DNA of 64,000 bases from Agapetus fuscipes (lineage: Eukaryota > Arthropoda > Insecta > Trichoptera > Glossosomatidae), in assembly GCA_951799405.1 (NCBI GenBank), contig OX637343.1, positions 16,222,524 to 16,286,523 of the forward strand, given 5' to 3'. Positions 7,056 through 64,000 of this stretch are shown one piece after another. The notes under the pieces are model-generated. The model searched no databases. It saw nothing but the letters and a program-made list of their open reading frames with translations, and was not told the origin of the DNA. How positions within the stretch are numbered: position 1 is the stretch's first letter; each line of letters opens with the position of its first letter. The position numbers and the translations under genes were made by a program.

Positions 7056-7180
7056 TTTTCGCTGCGTTAGTTCTTGTTTACCGTTTACGCCATTGAGAAA
7101 ATTTTACATAAGCAATAATTGCATGTGTAGGTACTGGACCAATGTGTCTTATAAAAACAAGAAAATTATTTTAATAATAT

Positions 7181-7635
7181 TGTAACGAAATACACTGGTA
7201 GATGTTTATTGGTGTACGTGTGTTTTGAGAGAATGTTCTGGCCCAGACGATTGTAATTGTAAGGTGTGTATGTAGGTAGGAAATGGACTCTTCATGAAAT
7301 AAATATGTCCAGAATCGTCTATACAACTGTGGTAGTGGAAGTTTCTAGGGCAGGCTGGAATGGCCCCTAGGTTCCGCTATAAGAAGGGCGACAATGGGCT
7401 GAAGCGAGTCAGTCTTTCGAAGCACTCACACAGTGGAATATCTAGTTACTAGGGCGACCAATATGGTGTAAAATAAATGTAATCTGTACGAAATAAATAA
7501 GTGTGTTAAAATAAATCTGTTAGAATAAGTCTGTTAAAAATAAATCTATTGTAAGAAAGTCTGTGTAAATAAACTGTATGGCTAACTTGTGTTAAACTTG
7601 TGTTTTAATTAAAAGAACCCAGGAAAAACGTAACA
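7181..7635 (+). repeat. 5' LTR
   Basis: 455 bp, TGTAACGAAATACACTGG to AAAAACGTAACA, duplicated at 9675-10129 without a difference that I can find. Several AATAAA signals lie in the 3' half, consistent with R-region polyadenylation. Confidence 0.95.
7378..7414 (+). promoter_or_regulatory. Predicted LTR core promoter (TATA plus Inr)
   Basis: TATAAG at 7378-7383 is followed by TCAGTC at 7409-7414, putting the initiator A about 33 bp after the first T of the TATA box. TCAGT is the typical arthropod initiator. The same pair is present in the 3' LTR at 9872-9908. The start site is a prediction. Confidence 0.6.
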
Positions 7636-7636
7636 G

Positions 7637-7654
7637 TGGTGTCCGGTGTGAAGT
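7637..7654 (+). other. Putative primer-binding site
   Basis: One base after the 5' LTR the sequence reads TGGTGTCCGGTGTGAAG. TGG is the complement of a tRNA CCA end, the expected PBS start and position. I cannot name the tRNA from the sequence alone. Confidence 0.6.
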
Positions 7655-7988
7655 TTAAAACCAAGTACCAAGTAAAAACTGTGCTTGAGAGTATTGAAAA
7701 ATATATCTGGGCAACATAATAAAAACTAATGAATAAAAAAAAAGTTTTAAATAAAACTGATTAAACGTGAATTAAAAACGATCGTGTGGTTACCCGCTAA
7801 AAATTTGATTGAAGTGTGGATAGATAACGTGTTAATAATATTGTGTTAGTGTTAGTAAATACTCATTAGCCGATGACGAAGCAAAGTAAATAATCATTAT
7901 CTAATATCATTATTTGAAATTTAAAAATATTTTTTTTGTAAAATAATTTGTTTTGAAGTAAATTTAAATTTTTGTTAAAATAAAAAAA
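7655..7988 (+). other. Untranslated leader of the LTR element
   Basis: AT-rich leader between PBS and ORF with no supported ORF. The start codon at 7989 lies in AAAAAAATGGCTAAG, a good arthropod start context (A at -3). Confidence 0.6.
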
Positions 7989-9674
7989 ATGGCTAAGGTG
8001 AACATCAAGGACCTCAAAGTCTCGGAGCTTAAAAATGAGCTTCTGGAGAGGGACCTGGAGACCTCAGGAGGGAAGGCGGCCTTACAAGCACGCCTCATGG
8101 AGGCCTTGGAACAGTCAGGCGAAGACCCGGCATATTTTGTCATGGCGTCTGGAGGGGACCGCGAGCGAGCCGTGGAAGAGTTTAAAACAAAGATGGCTGC
8201 CAACTTCAAGAGCTTGAGGGAAGACCTAGCTGGTTGGAAGGAGGAGAGGGCTAAAAACCTAGCCTTAAGAATGTCGGTGGACACTGATAGTGTAAAATTA
8301 AGTGATAATCAGGATGACAAAAAGGCCGATATGTCAACTGAGGATGAGTCGTCTCAGAAGTTGGGGAAGGGAGACCTGAAGGCCAAAAACAACGTCCAGC
8401 TCAAGGCTGAGGACGCAGCTGACAGCAAAGATGACAAAGATGATGTCAAGTCGGCTGAAAACGGCAAGAGTGACTCGGCCGAGGTGAAGGCTGACAAGGA
8501 TGCGAAGGAGGAGACGGACGCCAAGGAGGAGGATGAGGACGCCAAGGACAAGAAGAAGGCCAAGAAGGCCAACAGTGTGAAGAAGAAGCCCGCGCCCAAG
8601 AAGAAGGCGGAGGAGGCCATGGAGGAGGCTCCCAAGAAGAAGAAGGCCGTGGAGCCGCCGGTGCCCGTGCCCGCGGGCCGGGGCATCCCCATCGACCACA
8701 TCCCCGACGTGGAGGTGGCCATCTCCAGGTTCAAGATGGAAGACCTCAAGTTCCTGTACAATCAATTGTGCCGCACGAACCTCATCAAGCGCAACAAAAA
8801 GAAGTTCAAGGGCTACGAGTTTGAGAAGGACACGCCTGAGCACAAGGCCAAGCTGCTGCGGACGCTGCTGCGGACGCTGTGCGAGAAGCTGGGCTTGGAC
8901 AAGAGGGGCGCGCCCACGGAGCTGGCCAGCAGGGTGGTGGGCTTCCTGCAGCTGCCAAAGCAGGCCTCCTCGCACGCCAGGGGGCTGATGAAGGAGAGGC
9001 CGGTGACTGACCGCGGCGAGGCCACGGGAGGCAGGCCCAGAAGGTCCGCTGCTGCTATTGTCAAGAGAGGTTACTCTAACGAGGAGTATGAAACAGATCC
9101 GGAAACCAAAGTGCGGGGACCCAAAGTCAGCAGGGATGATTTAGGGGATTCAGATGGCTCGTACAACCCGAGTGGCTCCGGACAGGAGGCGGACTCTGAC
9201 TTTGACCCGTCAGTGAGGGAGGGGGGCGCTCCCTCCCGCAGGCGCCGCGCCCCCGCCCGCAGGGGCTCAGCCAAGCAGAGCAAGCAGAAGGGACGACCCA
9301 AGCATGGCGCGGCAGGAAACCACTCAGCGAGTCAGAGGACGAGAGCGAGAGTGAGAACTTCGCTTCCGAGCAGGAGAGCGGCTCCGACGACCAAGGATTC
9401 TGATCCTTTGACGCCGGCGAGCAAGCGGGGCCTAGGAGCGGTGGCCGCCCGGGGACGCAAAGCGGTGCCCCCAGCCAAGGAAAGGCGCCCATGCCGGCCG
9501 CCAAGAGGAAAGCACCCCCCCCCACACCAGCCAGCAATGACGGGCAAAACCCTAAGGGGAAAATTCCGTGGAACGTCATTTTTCCTGACCACTGGATGCA
9601 ACTGTGGGTCAAACTGCCCGTACCTTCTTAAAGAAAAGACTGTTCCGGGGCGGAACAGTCTAAGGGGGGGATAA
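7989..9674 (+). CDS. Gag(SAP)-DEK fusion protein, 561 aa, host gene captured by an LTR element
   Basis: Residues 7-43 form a SAP-type helix-hinge-helix motif (LKVSELKNELLERDLE...) of the kind that starts gag in many insect Ty3/Gypsy elements, followed by a short coiled-coil-like segment to about residue 95. From residue 95 or 115, where methionines resemble a native DEK start, the protein is acidic and lysine-rich. Residues 232-324 then match the DEK core (pseudo-SAP/SAP; GIPIDHIPDVEVAISRF, KKFKGYEFEKDTPE, LCEKLGLDKRGAPTELASRV, FLQLPK). DEK is a nuclear DNA-binding chromatin protein. After about residue 435 the DEK-like acidic SESEDESES tract lies in another frame, so small indels have shifted the frame. 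The C-terminal DEK-C domain is absent. The last ~45 codons derive from the element's 3' region, and the stop (9672-9674) touches the 3' LTR. No introns interrupt it, which implies capture from mRNA. Whether the fusion is translated is unknown. Confidence 0.88.
   Translation: MAKVNIKDLKVSELKNELLERDLETSGGKAALQARLMEALEQSGEDPAYFVMASGGDRERAVEEFKTKMAANFKSLREDLAGWKEERAKNLALRMSVDTDSVKLSDNQDDKKADMSTEDESSQKLGKGDLKAKNNVQLKAEDAADSKDDKDDVKSAENGKSDSAEVKADKDAKEETDAKEEDEDAKDKKKAKKANSVKKKPAPKKKAEEAMEEAPKKKKAVEPPVPVPAGRGIPIDHIPDVEVAISRFKMEDLKFLYNQLCRTNLIKRNKKKFKGYEFEKDTPEHKAKLLRTLLRTLCEKLGLDKRGAPTELASRVVGFLQLPKQASSHARGLMKERPVTDRGEATGGRPRRSAAAIVKRGYSNEEYETDPETKVRGPKVSRDDLGDSDGSYNPSGSGQEADSDFDPSVREGGAPSRRRRAPARRGSAKQSKQKGRPKHGAAGNHSASQRTRARVRTSLPSRRAAPTTKDSDPLTPASKRGLGAVAARGRKAVPPAKERRPCRPPRGKHPPPHQPAMTGKTLRGKFRGTSFFLTTGCNCGSNCPYLLKEKTVPGRNSLRGG
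9638..9671 (+). other. Perfect hairpin and polypurine tract
   Basis: GACTGTTCCG (9638-9647) and CGGAACAGTC (9651-9660) pair perfectly around a GGG loop. Immediately after comes AAGGGGGGGA (9662-9671), the polypurine tract that primes plus-strand DNA synthesis next to the 3' LTR. The hairpin may be an RNA element retained from the parent transposon. Confidence 0.8.
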
Positions 9675-10129
9675 TGTAACGAAATACACTGGTAGATGTT
9701 TATTGGTGTACGTGTGTTTTGAGAGAATGTTCTGGCCCAGACGATTGTAATTGTAAGGTGTGTATGTAGGTAGGAAATGGACTCTTCATGAAATAAATAT
9801 GTCCAGAATCGTCTATACAACTGTGGTAGTGGAAGTTTCTAGGGCAGGCTGGAATGGCCCCTAGGTTCCGCTATAAGAAGGGCGACAATGGGCTGAAGCG
9901 AGTCAGTCTTTCGAAGCACTCACACAGTGGAATATCTAGTTACTAGGGCGACCAATATGGTGTAAAATAAATGTAATCTGTACGAAATAAATAAGTGTGT
10001 TAAAATAAATCTGTTAGAATAAGTCTGTTAAAAATAAATCTATTGTAAGAAAGTCTGTGTAAATAAACTGTATGGCTAACTTGTGTTAAACTTGTGTTTT
10101 AATTAAAAGAACCCAGGAAAAACGTAACA
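9675..10129 (+). repeat. 3' LTR
   Basis: Same 455-bp sequence as 7181-7635. It ends CGTAACA and is followed by ATAT, the second target-site copy. Confidence 0.95.
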
Positions 10130-10365
10130 ATATTTAAAAGAACTCTCACATTATCGAGTTTTACGGTTTTTTTTAGCTCAAATTGTGTAGAATTTGATTC
10201 ATAAGACAACTGCATGACAAAGTCATATTTGACAAGATTGGCGTATACCTACCTACGGTAAACAAGAACTGGGGAAGCGTTTTGTGTAAAAAATTAGAAA
10301 ATAATTCAGTCCTTATACCAGGGAACGGCGGTAGGAGTTGCAAGGTTTATGTCCATGTTAGTTAG

Positions 10366-11784
10366 TTACTTAAAAAATCAATTGTTACACCAATTCTCAA
10401 AAAATCAAGCCTTCCAGCTGATTCTGTGGAAAATTATAGACCTGTGTCGTCCGTTCCTTTTATATCGAAAATTATTGAGAAGGCCGTTGTTTGGCAACTC
10501 ACTCAGCACATGGAGCGAGGCGGATATCTGTCTAAGTTTCAGTCAGCATATAGAAAAGCTCATTCCACTGAGACTGCCTTACTTCGCATTGTGAATGATG
10601 TGATAGCTGCGGTTGGGGACGGTGCTCTTGCCATGGTGGCAGTACTTGACATGAGCGCTGCCTTCGACACTGTTGATCACAGTATACTCATCACTAAGCT
10701 TGATAGGTTGTACGGAGTCCGAGGAGGAGTATCTAAATTGCTATCTTCATATCTGAAAGGCAGATGTCAGACTGTGGATGTTGATGGTGAGTCATCAGGT
10801 ATGCCCATGGACTGTGGTGTGCCTCAGGGATCTGTGCTCGGGCCTTTACTTTTTACCCTGTACACAAATGATCTTGAGAGCACTGTACTGATGAACGGCA
10901 CCAGCTACTATTCTTATGCTGATGATATTCTACTTTGTCGTTTCTGTCAGCCATCTATGACAGATGCCTGTAGTCTTGAGATGGTCCGGTGCATTGAAGT
11001 GGTGGCTGAGTGGATGGCAAGGTGTCGCCTTAGAATGAATCCAGACAAGACAGAATTCATCTGGATGTCGTCTCCTGGTAGGAAACACTTGCTTGGCTCT
11101 TCACCAATTAAAGTAATGGGCCTGGATGTATATCCATCTAGCTCAATTAAGTTTCTTGGGGTCCATCTTGACAACACTCTCTCCATGAGTACGCAAATAA
11201 GCTCGACTGTGAGCTCCTGTTTTTTTCACCTGAGGCAGTTGAGATGGGTCAGAAACTGTTTGACATCCGAAGCTGCTAAGATTCTCATTGCGTCCTTTGT
11301 TGTGTCGAGACTGGATTATTGCAATGGTCTGTTCTGGGGTCTTCCAAGGTTTCAGCAGTCTAGACTGCAATCCGTCTTTAATGCTGCAGCCAAATTACTT
11401 TTAGGAGGACGAAAAACTGACCATGTCTCTCCTCTGTTGCGGCGCCTTCATTGGCTGCGAGTCCCAGAGAGGATTGAGTACAAAATATGTGTTTCTGTTT
11501 TTAATGCCCTCAGAGGAGTTGCCCCATCGTACTTGTGTGAATTGTGCAGAGTCGACCAGATAGGTGGAAAACGATGCACTCTTCGTTCTGCACAGAGTGA
11601 CGCCGTAAACAGGCTTCAACTGCCTCTTCGACGGAACAGAACTGGTTTCGGAGACAGGGCTTTTAGTTCGGCTGGTCCATCCTGCTGGAATAGTCTACCT
11701 CTGGAGTTGAGAACAGAGACCAGTGTTGGCAGTTTCAGGAAGTTGCTTAAGACACATTTGTTTAACAGAAGCTTCAACACATAA
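10366..11784 (+). CDS. Reverse transcriptase of a CR1/L2-like LINE (partial, frame open)
   Basis: The frame is open from 10366, with the first Met at 10426 inside the RT domain, so that Met is not the native start. Recognisable RT blocks in order: ENYRPVSSVPFISKIIEK, FQSAYRKAHSTETALL, VAVLDMSAAFDTVDHSIL, GVPQGSVLGPLLFTLYTNDL, the catalytic YADD (10915-10926), and KTEFIWM followed by IKFLGVHLD. The thumb and C-terminal region end in FGDRAFSSAGPSCWNSLPLELR, a motif typical of the CR1/L2 group. There are no internal stops in about 470 codons, so the copy is young, but it lacks the endonuclease and cannot be a complete ORF2. Confidence 0.88.
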   Translation, partial: LLKKSIVTPILKKSSLPADSVENYRPVSSVPFISKIIEKAVVWQLTQHMERGGYLSKFQSAYRKAHSTETALLRIVNDVIAAVGDGALAMVAVLDMSAAFDTVDHSILITKLDRLYGVRGGVSKLLSSYLKGRCQTVDVDGESSGMPMDCGVPQGSVLGPLLFTLYTNDLESTVLMNGTSYYSYADDILLCRFCQPSMTDACSLEMVRCIEVVAEWMARCRLRMNPDKTEFIWMSSPGRKHLLGSSPIKVMGLDVYPSSSIKFLGVHLDNTLSMSTQISSTVSSCFFHLRQLRWVRNCLTSEAAKILIASFVVSRLDYCNGLFWGLPRFQQSRLQSVFNAAAKLLLGGRKTDHVSPLLRRLHWLRVPERIEYKICVSVFNALRGVAPSYLCELCRVDQIGGKRCTLRSAQSDAVNRLQLPLRRNRTGFGDRAFSSAGPSCWNSLPLELRTETSVGSFRKLLKTHLFNRSFNT

Positions 11785-14325: not shown

Positions 14326-15046
14326 ATGTTATTTTTCAGCCATGTTTACAAAAAAAAAACTCACATTCCATATTATTATTGACTGAAGATTTATTCTGAC
14401 TGAAATTGACGCTCCTAGCATGGAAAATTTTGACACGTCCTTCTCGGTGAAAGTTTGTAACACGATTTGCACTAAGCTGTTAAAAGTTATCTCTCGAGGT
14501 TTTCTTTTTTCACTGTTTGCATCTCTTGCGGTTCGTAGGGAAATTCTGGAAACTTTTACCTAATTTTATTCCAATTTCGATAGTTTGCGTGCGATGCAAA
14601 GTTTTGACTAAGTCCATGTCGATATTAGCATCTATTTAACGGATATGTTGTTTTTGTGTTACAAATATTTAAGTCCAAATAATATTAGAGTTAACGAAGG
14701 TATTAAAGACTTATTTTTAAAAGAAAAATCATAAATAATGAATAAAGTGTTATAATTTTACCAGGTCAATTTAATAACAAGTGCGGTTATTTAAGGTACG
14801 GTTCACACACGATACGTACACATAGTTGCTTTTGAACTGTATAGCTCGGCAGCTTAGAGACAAGTCTGGCTACAGAGCATCTCGGTCTCTATTTATAGGT
14901 GAGAAAAAGAGTTATTCTCAAAACATTTAAAGCTGGCGCATGCGAAGTTTTGTCATAACATTATACTTAGAATATTCGAGTTCACACTCACACAATCTCA
15001 AAAAAACATAAATATCAAATTATACACCATTTTATTAAAGCCTAAT
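14326..15046. other. No gene seen
   Basis: AT-rich, no supported ORF or repeat assignment. Confidence 0.4.
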
Positions 15047-15050
15047 ATTT

Positions 15051-15305
15051 CGCTGCCTTAGTTCTTGTTTATCGTATACGCCATTGAGAAAATTTTACAT
15101 GAGCAATGTTTGCATGTGTACTGGACCAATGTTTCTTATGAAAACCAGAACTTTATTTAAAAAATATTTAAAAGAACTCTCACATTATCGAGTTTTATGG
15201 TTTTTCTTAGCTCAGATTTTGTAGAATTTGATTCATAAGACAACTGCATGACAAAGTCATATTAGACAAGATTGGCGTATTCGATAAACAAGAACTGGGG
15301 GAGCG
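15051..15305 (+). mobile_element. Family B MITE, intact
   Basis: 255 bp between CGCTGCCTTAGTTCTTG and CAAGAACTGGGGGAGCG, with ATTT target duplications at 15047-15050 and 15306-15309. It serves as the reference copy for the interrupted one at 7060. Confidence 0.88.
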
Positions 15306-15942
15306 ATTTCACGAATATTTGGCAAATTCTACAATTTTGTTTTGGCTTTCCTCACTTGCATTTTTTGACTAATCTTGTTGTTCCTTTTGCATATAGAATT
15401 ATTCTGATTTTTAGAAATTTCTGATAAAACTCTCTCATCCTGGTTTACAGAGAATTATTAAAAGTATGAAGATAACAAAAAAAACAATCTGAGTATAATT
15501 TTATTCAAATACAAAAATATTTTCGTGTTTTGCCAAGGCTTGAGAAAGTACAAAAAAAAAACAATTAAATGTTTCAGCAAAGTCAATAGTTGTCTCGGTG
15601 AAACAGAAGATTGCTTTTATCGAGCCAATTCAATATTTCCCACAAAAAACAAACAAAATCCAAGAAAAATAACTTTTTACATCAATCATTGAAGACTACG
15701 ACCTTGGCGATATCCGAAAGCGAAGTGAAAATAATGATTACCTATTGGAATCCAAGCATTGAGTAATAACATAGCGGAGCAGATACTAACTTACTGCATT
15801 GATACATACCATAGCCCATATTTGTCTCAGTCCTGTTAAACGTGCAGTTGTGTAGTCATACAAAACATATTTTTACGTCTCAAATTTTATCTTTTCTTGC
15901 TTTCTCCATTTTGTGTTGACATTCAATTATAACCATGCCATC
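15306..15942. other. No gene; start of an old repeat
   Basis: From about 15760 it resembles 6230 onward. The remainder is AT-rich and unassigned. Confidence 0.35.
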
Positions 15943-21289: not shown

Positions 21290-21852
21290 AGATGGATGTC
21301 GTGGTAGAGGAAGACCGAGAAAAGTATGGAAGGATCAAATCTCTGAAATAGCGAATGAATGGGATATCCAGAGTCATAATAAAAGGAAGACTTGTATGAA
21401 AAATGTTATGACTCTGGATGAAATGAAAGAAGTATGCAAGGACAGGAAGAAGTGGAGGCTAATCTGCAATGTTGATACCTAATGTTGGTGTATTCATTTG
21501 CTACATTTTTTGCATAGGAAATTTTTGACTTTTTTTTGTATAGATTTCTTTGTAAGGTTTTTTTCTTTTTTATATTTAAATGTAATTTATTATTCATATT
21601 CCTTGACTTAAAGGTTGGTGTGAGGCTGACCACCCATACTGTAAAAAATGGTTCACTTTGCCAATGTCACCCCTGTTTCTGGGAAGGTCGGCAAAAGTTG
21701 TAGGGCTTATGTTCATTTGAGGTTTGGATTTTATTTGTAAGTACACATTCAGCATTTGTAAGCGCGAACTACACTTGTTGGTTTGTGGGCATACATCTGA
21801 GAGCTTTAAATGAATATATCCTTGCAACTTAGATTAAAGATTATAGATTATA
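21290..21852 (+). mobile_element. RTE-like LINE 3' end with family A
   Basis: The plus-strand frame at 21290-21480 reads GCRGRGRPRKVWKDQISEIA...EMKEVCKDRKKWR, the conserved C-terminal end of an RTE-like ORF2, then a stop. A ~110-bp spacer and complete family A (21598-21852) follow, ending AGATTATAGATTATAGAT. This copy best shows that family A lies directly downstream of the LINE ORF. Confidence 0.8.
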
Positions 21853-21878
21853 GATCCGGCTAACTTTCCTTTGGCACT

Positions 21879-22292
21879 AAATGTATCAGCTATTCTTTTT
21901 ATGTTAAATTTTTATTTTTCATGGATATTATACATGTTAATAGGTTTTTGGGTAAACCATTCGCTCCCCCAGTTCTTGTTTGCCGTATAGACCAATTCTG
22001 TCAAATATTACTTTTTAATACAGTTGTCTGTAAAATACAATTCTACAGAATCTGAGCAAAGAAAAAACGTAAAACTCGATTATGTGAGAGTTGTTTAAAT
22101 ATTTTTTTTAAATCAATGTCCTGTTTTCATAAGGCACATTGTTCCAGTACACATGCAAACATTGCTCATGTAAAATTAGCTTAATGCTCTATACGGCAAA
22201 CATGAACTGAGGCAGCGAAATGTATCAGCTATTCTGTTAATATTAAATTTTGAGTTTTCATGGATATTATACATGTTAATAGGTTTTTGGGT
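21879..22292. repeat. 75-bp direct repeats flanking a family B MITE
   Basis: 21879-21953 and 22218-22292 share AAATGTATCAGCTATTCT and CATGGATATTATACATG and end TTTTTGGGT, with about half a dozen differences. The second copy abuts the MITE directly. Confidence 0.8.
21962..22217 (-). mobile_element. Family B MITE
   Basis: Minus orientation (CGCTCCCCCAGTTCTTG ... GAACTGAGGCAGCG). The 4-bp flanks CATT and AAAT do not match, unlike other copies. Confidence 0.85.
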
Positions 22293-24952: not shown

Positions 24953-25500
24953 AGAAATTCTGTGCGGGAGACTCCCTAGATTTCAGAGACTCTAGGGGTC
25001 TATGACACTCGTTGTATTGCCGCAGAGGTGTGTTTTACGAGCTTACGAGCTCATAGCTTCAAAGCACCAATGTTAAATCAGTACCCAGTATTACGCTGCC
25101 TTAGTTCTTGTTTGCCGTATATACCATAAAACTAATTTTACATGAGCAATGTTTGCATGTGTACTGGACCACTGTGTCGTATGAAAACAGGAAATTGATT
25201 TTAAAAATATTTAAAACAACTCTCAAATTATCGAGTTTTACGTTTTTTATTAGCTCAGATTGTGTAGAATTTGATTCTTAAGACAACCGCATAAAAAAGT
25301 CATATTTAACAAAATTGGTCTATACGGCAAACAAGAACTGGGGGAGCGACTGTTGCTGTAAGGCTGGTTGAAACTTTTGTGGCCTGTCTTTGGTATAGGT
25401 TTTATGAATTTTTCAACCCACCGAAGAGCATATTTGTAAATTTAAGTCGTGTACTTTTGTGCTCCGTCTGGATTCGAATCCACAAACTTCCATTTTGAAT
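24953..25500 (-). repeat. SINE1 copy with type-ii tail, split by a family B MITE
   Basis: The type-ii tail (CTGTGCGGGAGACTCCCTAG) at 24959 onward is followed by the body to ACCCAGT, then the MITE, then GTTGCTGTAAGGCTGG through the tRNA-like head GGATTCGAATCCACA (about 25485). Confidence 0.75.
25094..25348 (+). mobile_element. Family B MITE
   Basis: CGCTGCCTTAGTTCTTG ... CAAGAACTGGGGGAGCG, inserted in SINE1. No clean 4-bp duplication is visible. Confidence 0.82.
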
Positions 25501-28961: not shown

Positions 28962-29197
28962 CGGGCTACACATACAGTGAAACTTATTTCCGCGTTATTC
29001 CCGAAAGGAGTCGCAGGTGGCGAATTGAACTTTTTTATTTTTACAGTTAAGAACGGCCCTCTTACGCCAACCACTTCAGTTGAAGTGAGTGTTTCCCAGC
29101 TCTCGAGTAGGCTGGTACTCATTTCTTGTGAAGGCTACGTAAACCTTGCCGGTATTTTATATTGAATTTTGAAATAAGCACCGAAGCGGGAAATTAT
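28962..29197 (-). repeat. SINE2 copy lacking its head
   Basis: Minus strand, from TTTCCCGCTTCGGTGC to the CCTTTCGGGAATAACGCGG block and ACTGTATGTGTAGC. Confidence 0.72.
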
Positions 29198-29204
29198 AGA
29201 TCTA

Positions 29205-29440
29205 TTATCTAAGTTGCAAGGATATATTCATTCAAAGCTCTCAGATGTATGCCCACAAACAAACACGTGTAGTTCGCGCTTACAAATGCTGATTGTGTAC
29301 TTACAAATAAAATCCAAACCTATAAGCCCTGCAACTCTTGCCGACATTCCCTGAAACAGGGTTGACATTGGCAAAGTGAACCATTTTTTACAGTATGGGT
29401 GGTCAGCCTCATACCAACCTATAAGTCAAGGAATACGAGC
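29205..29440 (-). repeat. Family A copy
   Basis: Close to the 327 and 15943 copies (CAAGGATATATTCATTCAAAGCTC). A poly(A) run of about 20 follows at 29461. Confidence 0.8.
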
Positions 29441-29755
29441 AATAAATAACATTTAAGTATAAAAAAAAAAAAAAAAAAAAACATCAGTGCTAACTAAAAA
29501 TTCATACAATGATAAAGCTGGGTCACATTTTCGCCAAATTTTAAAGAGTCGACTAAAACAAATGTCTTTAGAGAGCTTTCTAGTAAAAAGTTATTAATTA
29601 ATTGTCATAAATTTATAAATAATAAACTAGTTGTGATTTTAAAAAATGTGTTTTATCCGGGTTTTTACGATCATTAACAATTTATAAGCATGTAGTTTTA
29701 TTTGATGCATGGAACGCATTTTTTTGTATTACATTGATTTATATGGGTATGACTC
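29441..29755. other. No gene; poly(A) and AT-rich
   Basis: Poly(A) at about 29461-29481, then unassigned AT-rich sequence. Confidence 0.4.
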
Positions 29756-30639: not shown

Positions 30640-30965
30640 TTGTTTTTTTTTTTTTTTTTAGATTTCTTTTTAAGGTTTTGTTCTTTTTTCATACTTAAAT
30701 GTTATTTATTAATTGTATTCCTTGACTTATAGGTTGGTATGAGGCTGACCACCCATACTGTAAAAAATGGTTCACTTTGCCAATGTCACTCCTGTGTCAG
30801 GGAAGGTCGGCAAAAGTTGTAGGGCTTATGTTCATTTGAGGCTTGGATTTTATTTGTAAGTACACATTCAGCATTTGTAAGCGCGAACTACACGTGTTTA
30901 TTTGTGGGCATTCATTTGAGAGCTTTAAATCAATGTATCCTTGCAACTTAGATTATAGATTTATA
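30640..30965 (+). mobile_element. RTE-like LINE 3' UTR with family A
   Basis: TAGATTTCTTTTTAAGG and CATACTTAAATG spacer blocks as at 21540, then complete family A ending AACTTAGATTATAGAT. Confidence 0.75.
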
Positions 30966-31179
30966 AATCATGGTTATGTTTGTCACAAAAAAAACGAAAA
31001 TACCACCATTAACTGTGATAGCGGCTGTTGTTGCATTACAAATTTTGAAGAGCTTTTGATACACGCAGATGTCACTAGATTTTACTTTTTTTCTAACTCA
31101 CTTATTGTTTTCTTCTTTTAACTGACATTTCTTGTTAACGACAAACTCTTACTTAACAATAAGTCAAAAATCTACAAAA

Positions 31180-34244: not shown

Positions 34245-34755
34245 TTACATTCCTTGACTTATAGGTTGGTATGAGGCTGACCACCCATACTCTAAAAAAT
34301 GGTTCACTTTGCCAATGTCACCCCTGTGTCAGGGAAGGTCGGCAAAAGTTGTAGGGCTTATGTTTTTTTTGAGGATAGGATTTTATTTGTTACACATTCA
34401 GCATTTCGCTCCCCCAGTTCTTGTTTACCGTATACGCCAATCTTGTCAAATATGATTTTTCATGCATTTGTCTTATAAATCAAATTCTACACAATCTAAG
34501 CTAAGAAAAACCGTAAAACTCGATAATGTGAGAGTTGTTTTAAATATTTTTAAAATAAATTTCTTGTTTTCATAAGACACATTGGTCCAGTACACATGCA
34601 AACATTGCTTATGTAAAATTTTCTCAATGGCGTATACGATAAACAAGAACTAAGGCAGCGATTTGTAAGCGCGAACTACACGTGTTTGTTTGTGGGCATG
34701 CATTTGAGAACTTTAAATGAATATGTCCTTGCAACTTACATTAAAGATTAAAGAG
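34245..34755 (+). repeat. Family A copy split by a family B MITE
   Basis: Family A runs to ACATTCAGCATTT, breaks for the MITE, and resumes ATTTGTAAGCGCGAACTACA through AACTTACATTAAAGATTAAAG. The shared ATTT is the duplicated target. Confidence 0.85.
34407..34660 (-). mobile_element. Family B MITE
   Basis: CGCTCCCCCAGTTCTTG ... CAAGAACTAAGGCAGCG with ATTT on both sides (34403-34406 and 34661-34664). It provides an empty-site proof of the 4-bp duplication. Confidence 0.9.
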
Positions 34756-48518: not shown

Positions 48519-50878
48519 CAGTGGCGAAGGGTGCCATACAAGCCGGTTCCCATCGGTTTCCCGTTTAAAATGAGGCAAAAATGATAATAAATTAGACTGC
48601 ATGGTTTCAATGGGGAAGAAATACGTATTGTTTCTTTGGGTTTAAATGTATTTTTTACTTTATAGCAGTCCGAAGGACTGTTATAAAGTATTGTATTCGT
48701 CCGAAAAAAAAAAAATGAGGTTTCAACGGAAATGAGTTGTCCTGCACCAGGACATGCAAAAAAACCTAATTTGTCGAACCTGTCCGTCCGTCCGTCCGTC
48801 CGTCCGTCCGTCCGTCCGTCCGTCCGTCCGTCCGTCCGTCCGTATGGATGTATGTATGTCCCAGCCGGAACTACTAATCGCAGAGTCACCAATTTTTGGA
48901 TTTAGAGAATTGACAACCACAGATTTTGATGGGCTGACCGGCATGGCACCAACCTGAAAATTCAAGATGGCTGCCATACAAAAAAAGCATAAAATTGCAC
49001 TTTTCTCAAAAACGGCTCTAACGATTTTCTTTCAAATTTCAGTGTGGTCGTTGCTTAAATTGTCGCGAAGAAAATTTGTTATGGCAACACTCTTCCCAAC
49101 CTGCGTCTATGAGTTGCTATATGAAAGAAAAAAACGATTGTGATTATCTCGGAAATGGCTGGGTTGACAAAAAAAAAATGTTCTACAATATTACGCGCAA
49201 TATTAATTTGTACAAAAATTTAAAGAAAACTTTAAATTTTATTTTACCTAAAGTACCGTTTACACGATCTCAAAATTTTCATCGAAAATATTAAAAAGAC
49301 CCATAAAAACGCAATTTTGTAAAACTTTTTTTAAGTTCACAGAAAAGAAAAATTTATAAACTTCTTTGCACTATAATTTGTTTTTCACTATTATGAGAAT
49401 TCAAGATGGCTTCCAAAGAGGAGAAAACTTCAAATGCGATTTTCTCAAAATCGGCTCGAGCGATTTTTTTTAAATTTTCAGTGAAGTAGTTGCTTGATAC
49501 ATTCTTACCAAATTTAGTTATGGCAACATTTTTGCTAATCTGCGTCTATGAGTTGCCATATGAAAAAAATAAACAATTGTGATTTTCTCAGAAGTGAAAG
49601 CGTGGACAAAAAAATAATGTTCTGTAATATTATACGTAACATCAAATTCTATATAAAAATTAAATTAAATTTGTGAAAATAAAATCATAAAGGGCCGTTT
49701 ACATGATATCAAAAATTGAAATTAAAAGGCTACAAAAACCCATCAGAACGCAAAAAACTTTTATGTTTCTTAAATTTATCAGAAAAAACTTTGTTATCAC
49801 TATAATTCATAGTGAAACATTTTTTAAATTTTAGAAAATTCAAGATGGCTTCCGAACAGCTGAAAATTTCAAATGAGATTTTCTCAAAAACGGCTCGAAC
49901 GATTTTCTTTATTTTTTTTTCATAATCGTAATTATAATACTGCTATGTAACAACAATAACCATTGCCTCATAATTTTCTTTGTTTTGGGGGTTGCCATAC
50001 AAGAGAAAAAAATAATTTAAAATTTCTCGGCAGAGAAAGGGTTAACTAAAAAATAATGTTCGACAATTGAAAAGCTTTTATATATACCTACATACATGAA
50101 TCATTACTTTTTTCAAAAAAATATTATAAAGTATAGCCACCATACAAAGTGACAAATTTTCATACAAAAAATTATTGTAATATTTTTGGTAGCAAAACGT
50201 CTAATACCCATTAATAAACCTACATAACAATTCGCTCAATCAATTGCTATATTACAACAATAAGCATTGCCTCTTAATACTCTTTGTTTTGGGGGTTGCC
50301 ATACAAGAGAAAACAATATTTTAAATTTTCCCGGCAGAGAACGGGTTAACTAAAAAATAATGTTCTACAATTGAAAAGCTCTTATATATACCTACATACA
50401 TTTATCATTACTTTTTTCAAATAAATATTATAAGTTGTAGCCACCATACAAAGTGACAAATTTTAATACAAAAATAATTGTAATATTCTTGGTACTAAAA
50501 CGCCTAATATGAAATACTAGGCTACGAGTCTTAAAATCTAGTAAGTTGCACCCATATCAATCATAACTGTCCAAAATATCAATGAAAAGTATAGGTACCC
50601 ACCAAACAAAGTGTTAGTTTTGATACAAACGGGATCAATGATAATACTGCAAAAAGACGATTGCTTAAAAAGATTAGCTTCATTACTTACACACAACTAA
50701 ATGTTTTGTTCTGAAAATTGGCTATGACCTAAAACATGACCGTATTTTGTGCTATAAAGTCCTGTGCAGTCCACTGTACAATTTATTTACTTTGTGCCTA
50801 TATTTTTTAACTACTTTGTTGCCTCATTTTAAAAGGGAAGCCGATGGGAATCGAGTTGAATGGCACCCTTCGTCACTG
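48519..50878. mobile_element. 2.36-kb non-coding element with ~60-bp terminal inverted repeats
   Basis: CAGTGGCGAAGGGTGCCAT at the left is mirrored by ATGGCACCCTTCGTCACTG at the right. The inverted similarity runs ~60 bp, through CCCATCGG.TTCCC.TTTAAAATGAGGCAA. Inside are a (TCCG)n run and two sets of diverged tandem repeats (units starting near 48958, 49392 and 49838, and near 49935 and 50236). No transposase ORF and no clear target duplication. Confidence 0.78.
48780..48841. repeat. (TCCG)n microsatellite
   Basis: About 15 uninterrupted TCCG units inside the inverted-repeat element. The apparent ORFs across it are artefacts of the repeat. Confidence 0.95.
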
Positions 50879-55549: not shown

Positions 55550-55550
55550 T

Positions 55551-55667
55551 GCCAACGACACGCGGTGTACCTGAGCGGTTACCCATCCAAGTACTGTCCG
55601 CGCCCAATGTTGCTTAACTTTGGTGATCTATGGGAACCGGTGCTTTCAACATGGTAACGTCGTTGAC
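55551..55667 (-). rRNA. 5S rRNA-like sequence (pseudogene or SINE head)
   Basis: A 117-nt minus-strand sequence with 5S landmarks in order: TACCATGTTGAAAGCACCGG, GATCACCAAAGTTAAGCAAC (box A region), GGCGCGGACAGTACTTGGAT, GGGTAACCGC (box C region) and CACCGCGTGTCGTTGGC. The two ends can pair (GTCAACGAC with GTCGTTGGC). It sits singly among repeats and is fused to SINE1, so a working gene is unlikely. Confidence 0.8.
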
Positions 55668-61392: not shown

Positions 61393-61965
61393 ACTAAATC
61401 TAAATCTAAATCTAAATCTAAGCTGCAAAGATATGTATCATTTGAGATTCATATTAAATGCATTCCCACAAGCAGACATGCATAATTTCGCGCTTACACA
61501 TGCTGCATGTGGACCTACAATATAAAAACCCCAATCTCAATGAACATAAGCCCTGCAACTCTAGCCGACCTTCCCTGAAGCAGGGGTGACATTGGCAAAG
61601 TGAACCATTTTTTTACAGTATGGGTGGTCAGCCGCATACCAACCTATCAGTCAAGGAGTACAAGCAATTAATACAATCAAATATATAAAACAAATAAATT
61701 CTTAGCAATTAAACAGTAAAAAATTAAAGAACTACAATACATATTTTGTAAATTTAAAAGCCTCAGCTTTAACCGCCAGCATTACAGATCAACCGCCATT
61801 TCTTTCGATCCTTGCATACTTCTTTCATTTCATCCAGAGCCATAACCTTTTTCATACAAGCTCTCCTTTTATTATGACTCTGGATATCCCATTTATTCGC
61901 TATTTCGAAAATTTGGTCCATCCATACCTTTCTCGGTCTTCCTCTTCCACGACATCCATTACATT
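61393..61965 (-). mobile_element. RTE-like LINE 3' end with family A
   Basis: (TAAATC)n tail, family A to 61660, spacer, then the coding end (minus strand CRGRGRPRKVWMDQIFEIANKWDIQSHNKR...) at 61780-61965. Confidence 0.8.
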
Positions 61966-63152: not shown

Positions 63153-63355
63153 ATTCCTTGACTTGTAGGTTGGAATGATGCTGACCGCCCATACTGTAAA
63201 AAATGGTTTACTTTCTCAATGTCACTCCTGTTTCAGGGAAGGTCGGCAAGAGTTGCAGTGCTTTTGTTCATTTGAGATTGAGTTTTACAGTGTAGGTTCA
63301 CATGCGGGCTTAAGCGTGAACTTATACGTGTCTGCGTGTGGGAATACTCTAATAT
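63153..63355 (+). repeat. Family A copy, ended by a family B insertion
   Basis: TTCCTTGACTTGTAGGTTGG to GTGTGGGAATACTCTAATAT, where the MITE begins. Confidence 0.8.
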
Positions 63356-63610
63356 CGCTGCCTCAGTTCTTGTTTATCGTAAACGCCATTGAGAAAATTT
63401 TACATGAACAATGTTTGCATGTGTACTGGACCAATGTGTCTTATGAAAACAAGAAATTTATTTAAAAAATATTTAAAAGAACTCTCACATTATCGAGTTT
63501 TACGGTTTTTCTTAGCTCAGATTGTGTAGAATTTGATGCATAAGACAACTGCATAAAAAAGTCATATTTGACAAGATTGGCGTATACGATAAACAAGAAC
63601 TGAGGGAGCG
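63356..63610 (+). mobile_element. Family B MITE, intact
   Basis: CGCTGCCTCAGTTCTTG ... CAAGAACTGAGGGAGCG with ATAT at 63352-63355 and 63611-63614. The ATATTTAAAAGAACTC at its middle is the site into which the DEK element was inserted in another copy. Confidence 0.9.
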
Positions 63611-63614
63611 ATAT

Positions 63615-64000
63615 GTCACCATTCCACTAGGGGTGGCCAGAGACTCTTCAGAGCTGCCTCCATTTTTTCCTATCCTGACATTCTTAATAACTTCTTTAAA
63701 TAAATACTTACTCAAAAAATCAATAAAAGTGGAATACTACAAAGTTGTAATTTCTTTAATTTTTTAAATCTTATTTTAAAAAATAATCAATCTAAAAAAA
63801 TGAATTTCCACAGTGTTTCACAAAAATCTTTTGAAAATTGAAAATGAAAAATTATTTTTCAAACACGCAGAGCATCCCTTCACATTAGAGGGTGTTAAAT
63901 ACAAGAATATGGCAGAAGTTGCCAGCACTGCGGTCTAGTGTGACGAGCTCCTCTGAGAAAAGAGAGAATCAAGACTCGGAGAAATAATTATTCAGAACTT
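63615..64000. other. RTE-like scrap, then no gene
   Basis: 63618-63700 (minus) resembles the 54030 and 61990 LINE scraps (CATTCCACTAGGGGTGGCCAG). The rest is AT-rich and unassigned. Confidence 0.4.

Follow-up and report, generated by a model that had tools for sequence, protein, structure and literature searches.

A non-autonomous LTR retrotransposon of Agapetus fuscipes in which a gag-like start is fused to DEK-derived coding sequence

The analysed stretch of the Agapetus fuscipes genome (64 kb, hereafter the window) contains a complete LTR insertion of 2,949 bases (positions 7181-10129), whose open reading frame (ORF) joins a gag-like start to a large part of a host DEK gene. We consider it very likely that this fusion ORF replaced gag-pol by template switching and that the element was mobilised by a helper.

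The 5' LTR (7181-7635) and the 3' LTR (9675-10129), both on the forward strand, begin with TGTAAC, end with GTAACA and are identical at 455 of 455 positions in a direct comparison, as had been reported in the initial annotation of this stretch. Direct LTRs with TG...CA termini, together with a target duplication, identify the unit as an LTR retrotransposon. A putative core promoter (7378-7414, +) is made up of TATAAG (7378-7383) and TCAGTC (7409-7414), with a spacing of 31 nt between 7378 and 7409, which we take to be a TATA motif and an initiator-like motif; these motif matches suggest a promoter function for the LTR. The AATAAA motif is present six times in each LTR. One base past the 5' LTR there is a stretch resembling a primer binding site (PBS), TGGTGTCCGGTGTGAAGT (7637-7654, +), and the polypurine tract (PPT) AAGGGGGGGA (9662-9671, +) precedes the 3' LTR. 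Both had been proposed before: the PPT is in its expected place, and the PBS-like stretch is a candidate by its expected position and its TGG start rather than by a tRNA match; no tRNA gene was found in the 64-kb window. Just 5' of the PPT, a perfect 10-bp hairpin (9638-9660, +; z-score -4.87 for the fold of 9620-9680) may have a role in the RNA of the element. The non-DEK 3' end of the element (9540-9674, +) has no Pfam match and closes with the ORF stop codon TAA (9672-9674), which abuts the 3' LTR; our guess is that this segment derives from the 3' end of pol. Reverse transcriptase (RT), integrase and protease families are absent among the Pfam matches of the ORF. With pol absent and only a gag-like N-terminal part left, the element is non-autonomous, in agreement with the previous claim that gag-pol had been replaced.

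The element is hosted by a MITE-like repeat of about 260 bp with 25-bp terminal inverted repeats (7059-10279; inverted repeat 7060-7084/10255-10279, 84% complementary), and this one repeat is split by the element into the flanks 7059-7180 and 10130-10279. The joined flanks were aligned with five uninterrupted paralogues, located near 15.0, 22.0, 25.1, 34.4 and 63.3 kb: exactly one AATAT-TTAAAA is present in four of the five, and the fifth has one extra base. Because the uninterrupted repeats have a single ATAT where the element is bordered by two (7177-7180 and 10130-10133), the element must have been inserted as a unit, duplicating ATAT. The target duplication claimed in the initial annotation is confirmed by these empty sites, and the presence of five of them in the neighbourhood documents the insertion from sequence alone.

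The window holds six or more copies of the MITE-like family (7059-10279, 15042-15306, 21958-22221, 25090-25352, 34402-34662 and 63349-63615), with more partial matches beyond the five aligned copies. Dispersed repeats are dense in general (327-774, 21406-21854, 29192-29474, 30649-30983, 61398-61959 and others), reaching 97.55% identity outside the LTRs among the matches listed. An open RT fragment at 10366-11784 (RVT_1, E 1.6e-32) extends over 472 codons without a stop and is of the non-LTR type by eye. The window also has a perfect GTCC tetranucleotide array of 15.5 copies (48782-48843) and a 5S rRNA match of 86 bits on the reverse strand (55550-55667); the latter differs from what we take to be a typical 5S sequence, and is possibly a 5S-derived SINE or a pseudogene. 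Pfam analysis of 20 other ORFs of the window gave one sub-threshold match only. Five repeat strings of lepidopteran type had no match in the window, a result that speaks neither for nor against a lepidopteran host.

The ORF occupies a single frame from 7989 to 9674 and encodes 561 amino acids. Its gag-like part corresponds to the first 94 codons (7989-8270, +), in which Pfam identified a SAP domain (PF02037, residues 6-41, E 4e-10); this domain, missed by the initial annotation, is common to a gag-like protein. Using residues 1-100 as query, and candidates of 0.55-1.75 times 561 residues in length, a range that leaves whole gag-pol proteins outside, we found one relative among 249 candidates. 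This relative (P0006) is a metagenomic protein of 349 amino acids from a 1,346-base JGI contig, with 59% identity to the ORF start across 54 residues. Its Pfam matches are to SAP families only; after its SAP and coiled-coil-like part comes a region which, by eye, resembles a Ty3/gypsy gag capsid. Codons 1-94 are thus likely to be gag-derived, judging from this one relative. The gag-DEK fusion proposed earlier stands in that DEK is joined in frame, while the gag identity of the 94 codons draws on P0006. The likeness of this protein to Ty3-type gag, judged by eye, is also the sole basis of a possible placement in Ty3/gypsy, as the element has no pol for an RT phylogeny. No relatives of the ORF or of P0006 were found in viral contigs, and no relatives were found in prokaryote contigs or phage records. 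Searches of the viral contigs with the PPT/LTR, LTR and repeat patterns gave no match; the PBS pattern gave two (L001 and L002), which were taken for chance matches.

From residue 95 onward the ORF is DEK (MSVDTDSVKLSDNQDDKKA in the element, MSGDTDKAKISDNQDEDKKSG at the native start), and the fusion is joined at DEK's own start codon, which the initial annotation had also missed. The alignment at the native start methionine is seen in four of six relatives; the N-terminus of P0003 differs, and P0005 is partial. According to protein matches and tblastn, DEK is read in its native frame over 8271-9299 (+), from the start codon through the core to the stretch GGRPRRS...DSDFDP. The core (8649-8984, +), which comprises the pseudo-SAP/SAP, nucleosome-binding domain, has two short stretches missing in comparison with human and moth DEK. 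Human DEK chains in the PDB match the ORF with an E value of 1.8e-10. With the whole ORF as query, and the 7993 candidates with most words in common as the scored set, five proteins with precomputed DEK_C were identified (E 3.0e-58 to 9.2e-38), and residues 222-430 identified six DEK_C-bearing proteins. Altogether, the three protein searches yielded seven distinct proteins, namely P0006 and six with precomputed DEK_C; five of these six have species names, all from Lepidoptera and all from Ditrysia, and P0005 is the sixth. A DEK profile search, suggested with the initial annotation, gave no match to any Pfam DEK profile for the whole ORF (E up to 1) or the DEK part (E up to 10), and DEK similarity was found through the PDB and the six proteins instead. 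The human DEK match (E 1.8e-10) and a core identity of 58-61% to the six relatives, measured over part of the core for P0005, identify this region as a DEK core. DEK_C (PF08766) is present in P0001, P0002 and P0004, the three native proteins scanned, and has no Pfam match in the ORF; the cargo appears to span roughly the initial three quarters of a DEK of lepidopteran type. The homology runs without a frame change between 8271 and about 9300, with no intron-like interruption over approximately 1 kb, which bears out the single intronless ORF with a DEK core described before.

The DEK part is considerably more diverged than the LTRs. Whereas the element has 58-61% core identity to the relatives, these share at least 79% among themselves; in the GGRPRRS...DSDFDP stretch the values are 72-77% for the element and at least 82% between relatives. 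Among the 93 core positions that are invariant in the relatives, the element keeps 57, has 30 changed and six deleted, and it has lost 12 (three by deletion) and kept 23 of the 35 positions that are identical in human and relatives. The two gaps in the core are of four and six residues, the second adjoining a 12-base tandem repeat (8852-8883). Beyond about 9300, native DEK is found in two tblastn frames (best frame-1 match E 6.7e-11), and a three-frame reading of this DEK-derived tail (9300-9539, +; DEK_C missing) indicated by eye about three frame changes in the last ~80 DEK codons, so that the ORF has ceased to encode DEK sequence in part of this tail. A small tree built from the core places the element beside human DEK, outside the relatives and on a long branch; long-branch attraction would give this placement, and equally so would descent from a family beyond those sampled. 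Taken together, the DEK part appears to be old or fast-evolving, far more so than identical LTRs suggest, an aspect absent from the initial annotation. Structure predictions were poor, with mean pLDDT values of 50.5 and 56.7, and the PDB matches of the core model carry no weight: the four best are DEK-nucleosome entries, but all 36 fall short of significance (best E 0.35).

Intact LTR ends, the target duplication and the lack of pol point to template switching and mobilisation in trans. The reverse transcriptase likely jumped from the element RNA to a DEK mRNA and back, forming the fusion; an intronless cargo between a gag-like start and the 3' end of the element fits template switching with a co-packaged mRNA, a process described in the available text of PMC5408686. 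The fused element would be transcribed from its LTR promoter. As pol is absent, a helper is needed, and the RNA would be packaged and copied in trans by the gag and pol products of a full-length relative, whose integrase would then have inserted the copy into the MITE-like repeat. Against this reading, an LTR search of the 64-kb window revealed neither a second copy nor a gag-pol partner. The insertion is recent, judging from the identical LTRs. Identical LTRs combined with a strongly diverged cargo imply either a DEK-carrying element lineage that has transposed repeatedly or an unusual host DEK. The simplest reading of recent LTRs and diverged cargo is that a DEK-carrying lineage transposed more than once; with less certainty than for the other steps, we infer that the capture predates the insertion and that this copy descends from such a lineage.

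The main alternative also has DEK captured through a template switch; the difference concerns age and lineage alone. It proposes that host DEK mRNA was joined to gag in the same event that made the insertion, which would then be a one-off LTR retrocopy of an unusual host DEK. We find this possible, though somewhat improbable. The identical LTRs agree with it, as does the LTR search, which found no second copy of the element within the 64-kb window, and retrocopies of this kind are described in animals in the available text of PMC5408686 and PMC8232201. The grouping of the element with human DEK in the core tree is also what the DEK of a distant insect would give, even though long branches attract, and the five named relatives are all from Ditrysia, leaving other insects unsampled. 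The changes and deletions at invariant core positions and the loss of about a third of the human-shared positions (12 of 35) would, however, be odd for a working host gene, and the shifts of frame within the tail are a further point against it.

The DEK part was also examined for signs of selection. There are no stops in the first 345 DEK codons. When the element's own codons were drifted neutrally to 60-75% identity, targets chosen from the observed divergence, only 0.07-7.3% of the runs remained stop-free (12 settings, 1,500 runs each). Twelve core positions carry a basic residue in human DEK and in every relative that is not gapped at that point, and 11 are still basic in the element, a retention expected under neutral drift in one case in ten (P = 0.101). 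Regarding the nine nucleosomal DNA contacts of human DEK, the five that are basic in moths (107, 124, 125, 158 and 168) are basic in the element as well, and the remaining four are non-basic in the element and likewise in moths. By identity, the conserved basic positions were kept in 5 of 7 cases against 18 of 28 for the others, and deeply conserved positions in 23 of 35 against 25 of 47 for those conserved in moths only, which is not significant (Fisher P 0.27). Strong purifying selection on DEK is not supported by these comparisons. The 36 changed or deleted positions, together with the shifts of frame in the tail, argue against the DEK part having been selected over its whole length. With some reservation, we suggest that the DEK part has drifted under a constraint that was relaxed but not absent, and that its frame was held for much of the time, which is not proof of function. 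Human DEK without its C-terminal domain still binds nucleosomes, perhaps somewhat less, according to PMC12263440.

Two readings would give the DEK part a function. DEK could be a working gene of the element family, in which a SAP-gag/DEK protein stays in frame because its basic, nucleosome-binding core tethers particles or preintegration complexes to chromatin, the family having long been spreading in the host genome with a gag-pol partner; this is unlikely in our view. Such a tether would be a protein-capture analogue of integrase chromodomains. Still less probable is a domesticated gag-DEK gene, in which the LTR promoter would drive a chimeric chromatin protein used by the host. The open 561-codon ORF with its SAP domain and DEK core could serve such a use, and maize Bs1, likewise a chimeric gene, reportedly yields both a transcript and a protein (PMC13317346), but the identical LTRs indicate a young insertion, the tail is partly out of frame and DEK_C is missing. 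Finally, the five-repeat alignment of empty sites excludes a native DEK locus flanked by LTRs and makes an assembly error, including the collapse of reads into an LTR-ORF-LTR order raised with the initial annotation, very unlikely, and both are further opposed by a DEK homology free of intron-like interruptions, by the in-frame SAP/gag-like part, by ends that coincide exactly with the target duplication and by the absence of N runs in the window.

Similar arrangements are known from other elements. Maize Bs1 is known to have no functional pol and to rely on functions supplied in trans. PMC13317346 describes it as an LTR retroelement with transduced host sequence; it belongs to a plant, and its chimeric ORF is assembled from fragments of three host genes, none of them a full-length ORF. 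In contrast, the element of A. fuscipes carries a single host gene, DEK, whose own start codon follows directly on 94 gag-like codons. The hallmark of an intronless host gene between LTRs, fused to the element ORF, is found here too. Acutely transforming retroviruses have Delta-gag-onc genomes, in which a truncated gag is joined to a cellular gene, pol is lost and mobilisation is by a helper. The element resembles these in combining a gag start with a captured gene in the absence of pol, the helper being known there and presumed here; it differs in having no env and no infection in evidence, and in being a genomic retrotransposon. In metazoans, LTR-mediated retroposition (Tan et al. 2016, as cited in PMC5408686 and PMC8232201) likewise brings host mRNA into LTR cDNA by a template switch and leaves intronless, LTR-flanked copies. 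Compared with these retrocopies, as presented in the available text of the citing papers, the element is structurally complete, has an in-frame fusion ORF and a cargo far more diverged than its LTRs. In view of these two papers, the earlier statement that host capture is rare in LTR elements may suit the complete element rather than the process. Human DEK (8kcy, 8kd1, 9l1x and 9l22; PMC12263440, in the text available) aligns with the core over 100 residues, while the element differs from it by the lack of DEK_C, two missing core stretches, a tail partly out of frame and a SAP domain in front. A DEK-carrying LTR element was found in none of the literature matches listed, by title or abstract opening and with subscription papers mostly uncovered, which agrees with the initial annotation. 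The kind of element is already represented by maize Bs1 and by LTR-mediated retroposition.

If true, a complete LTR element with a named host gene behind a gag-like start would link one-off retrocopies to the retroviruses that capture oncogenes. With an insertion that is young and a chromatin-protein cargo that appears old and is conserved in part, one can ask directly whether the cargo of a retrotransposon can come under selection, and whether chromatin binding is the selected trait.
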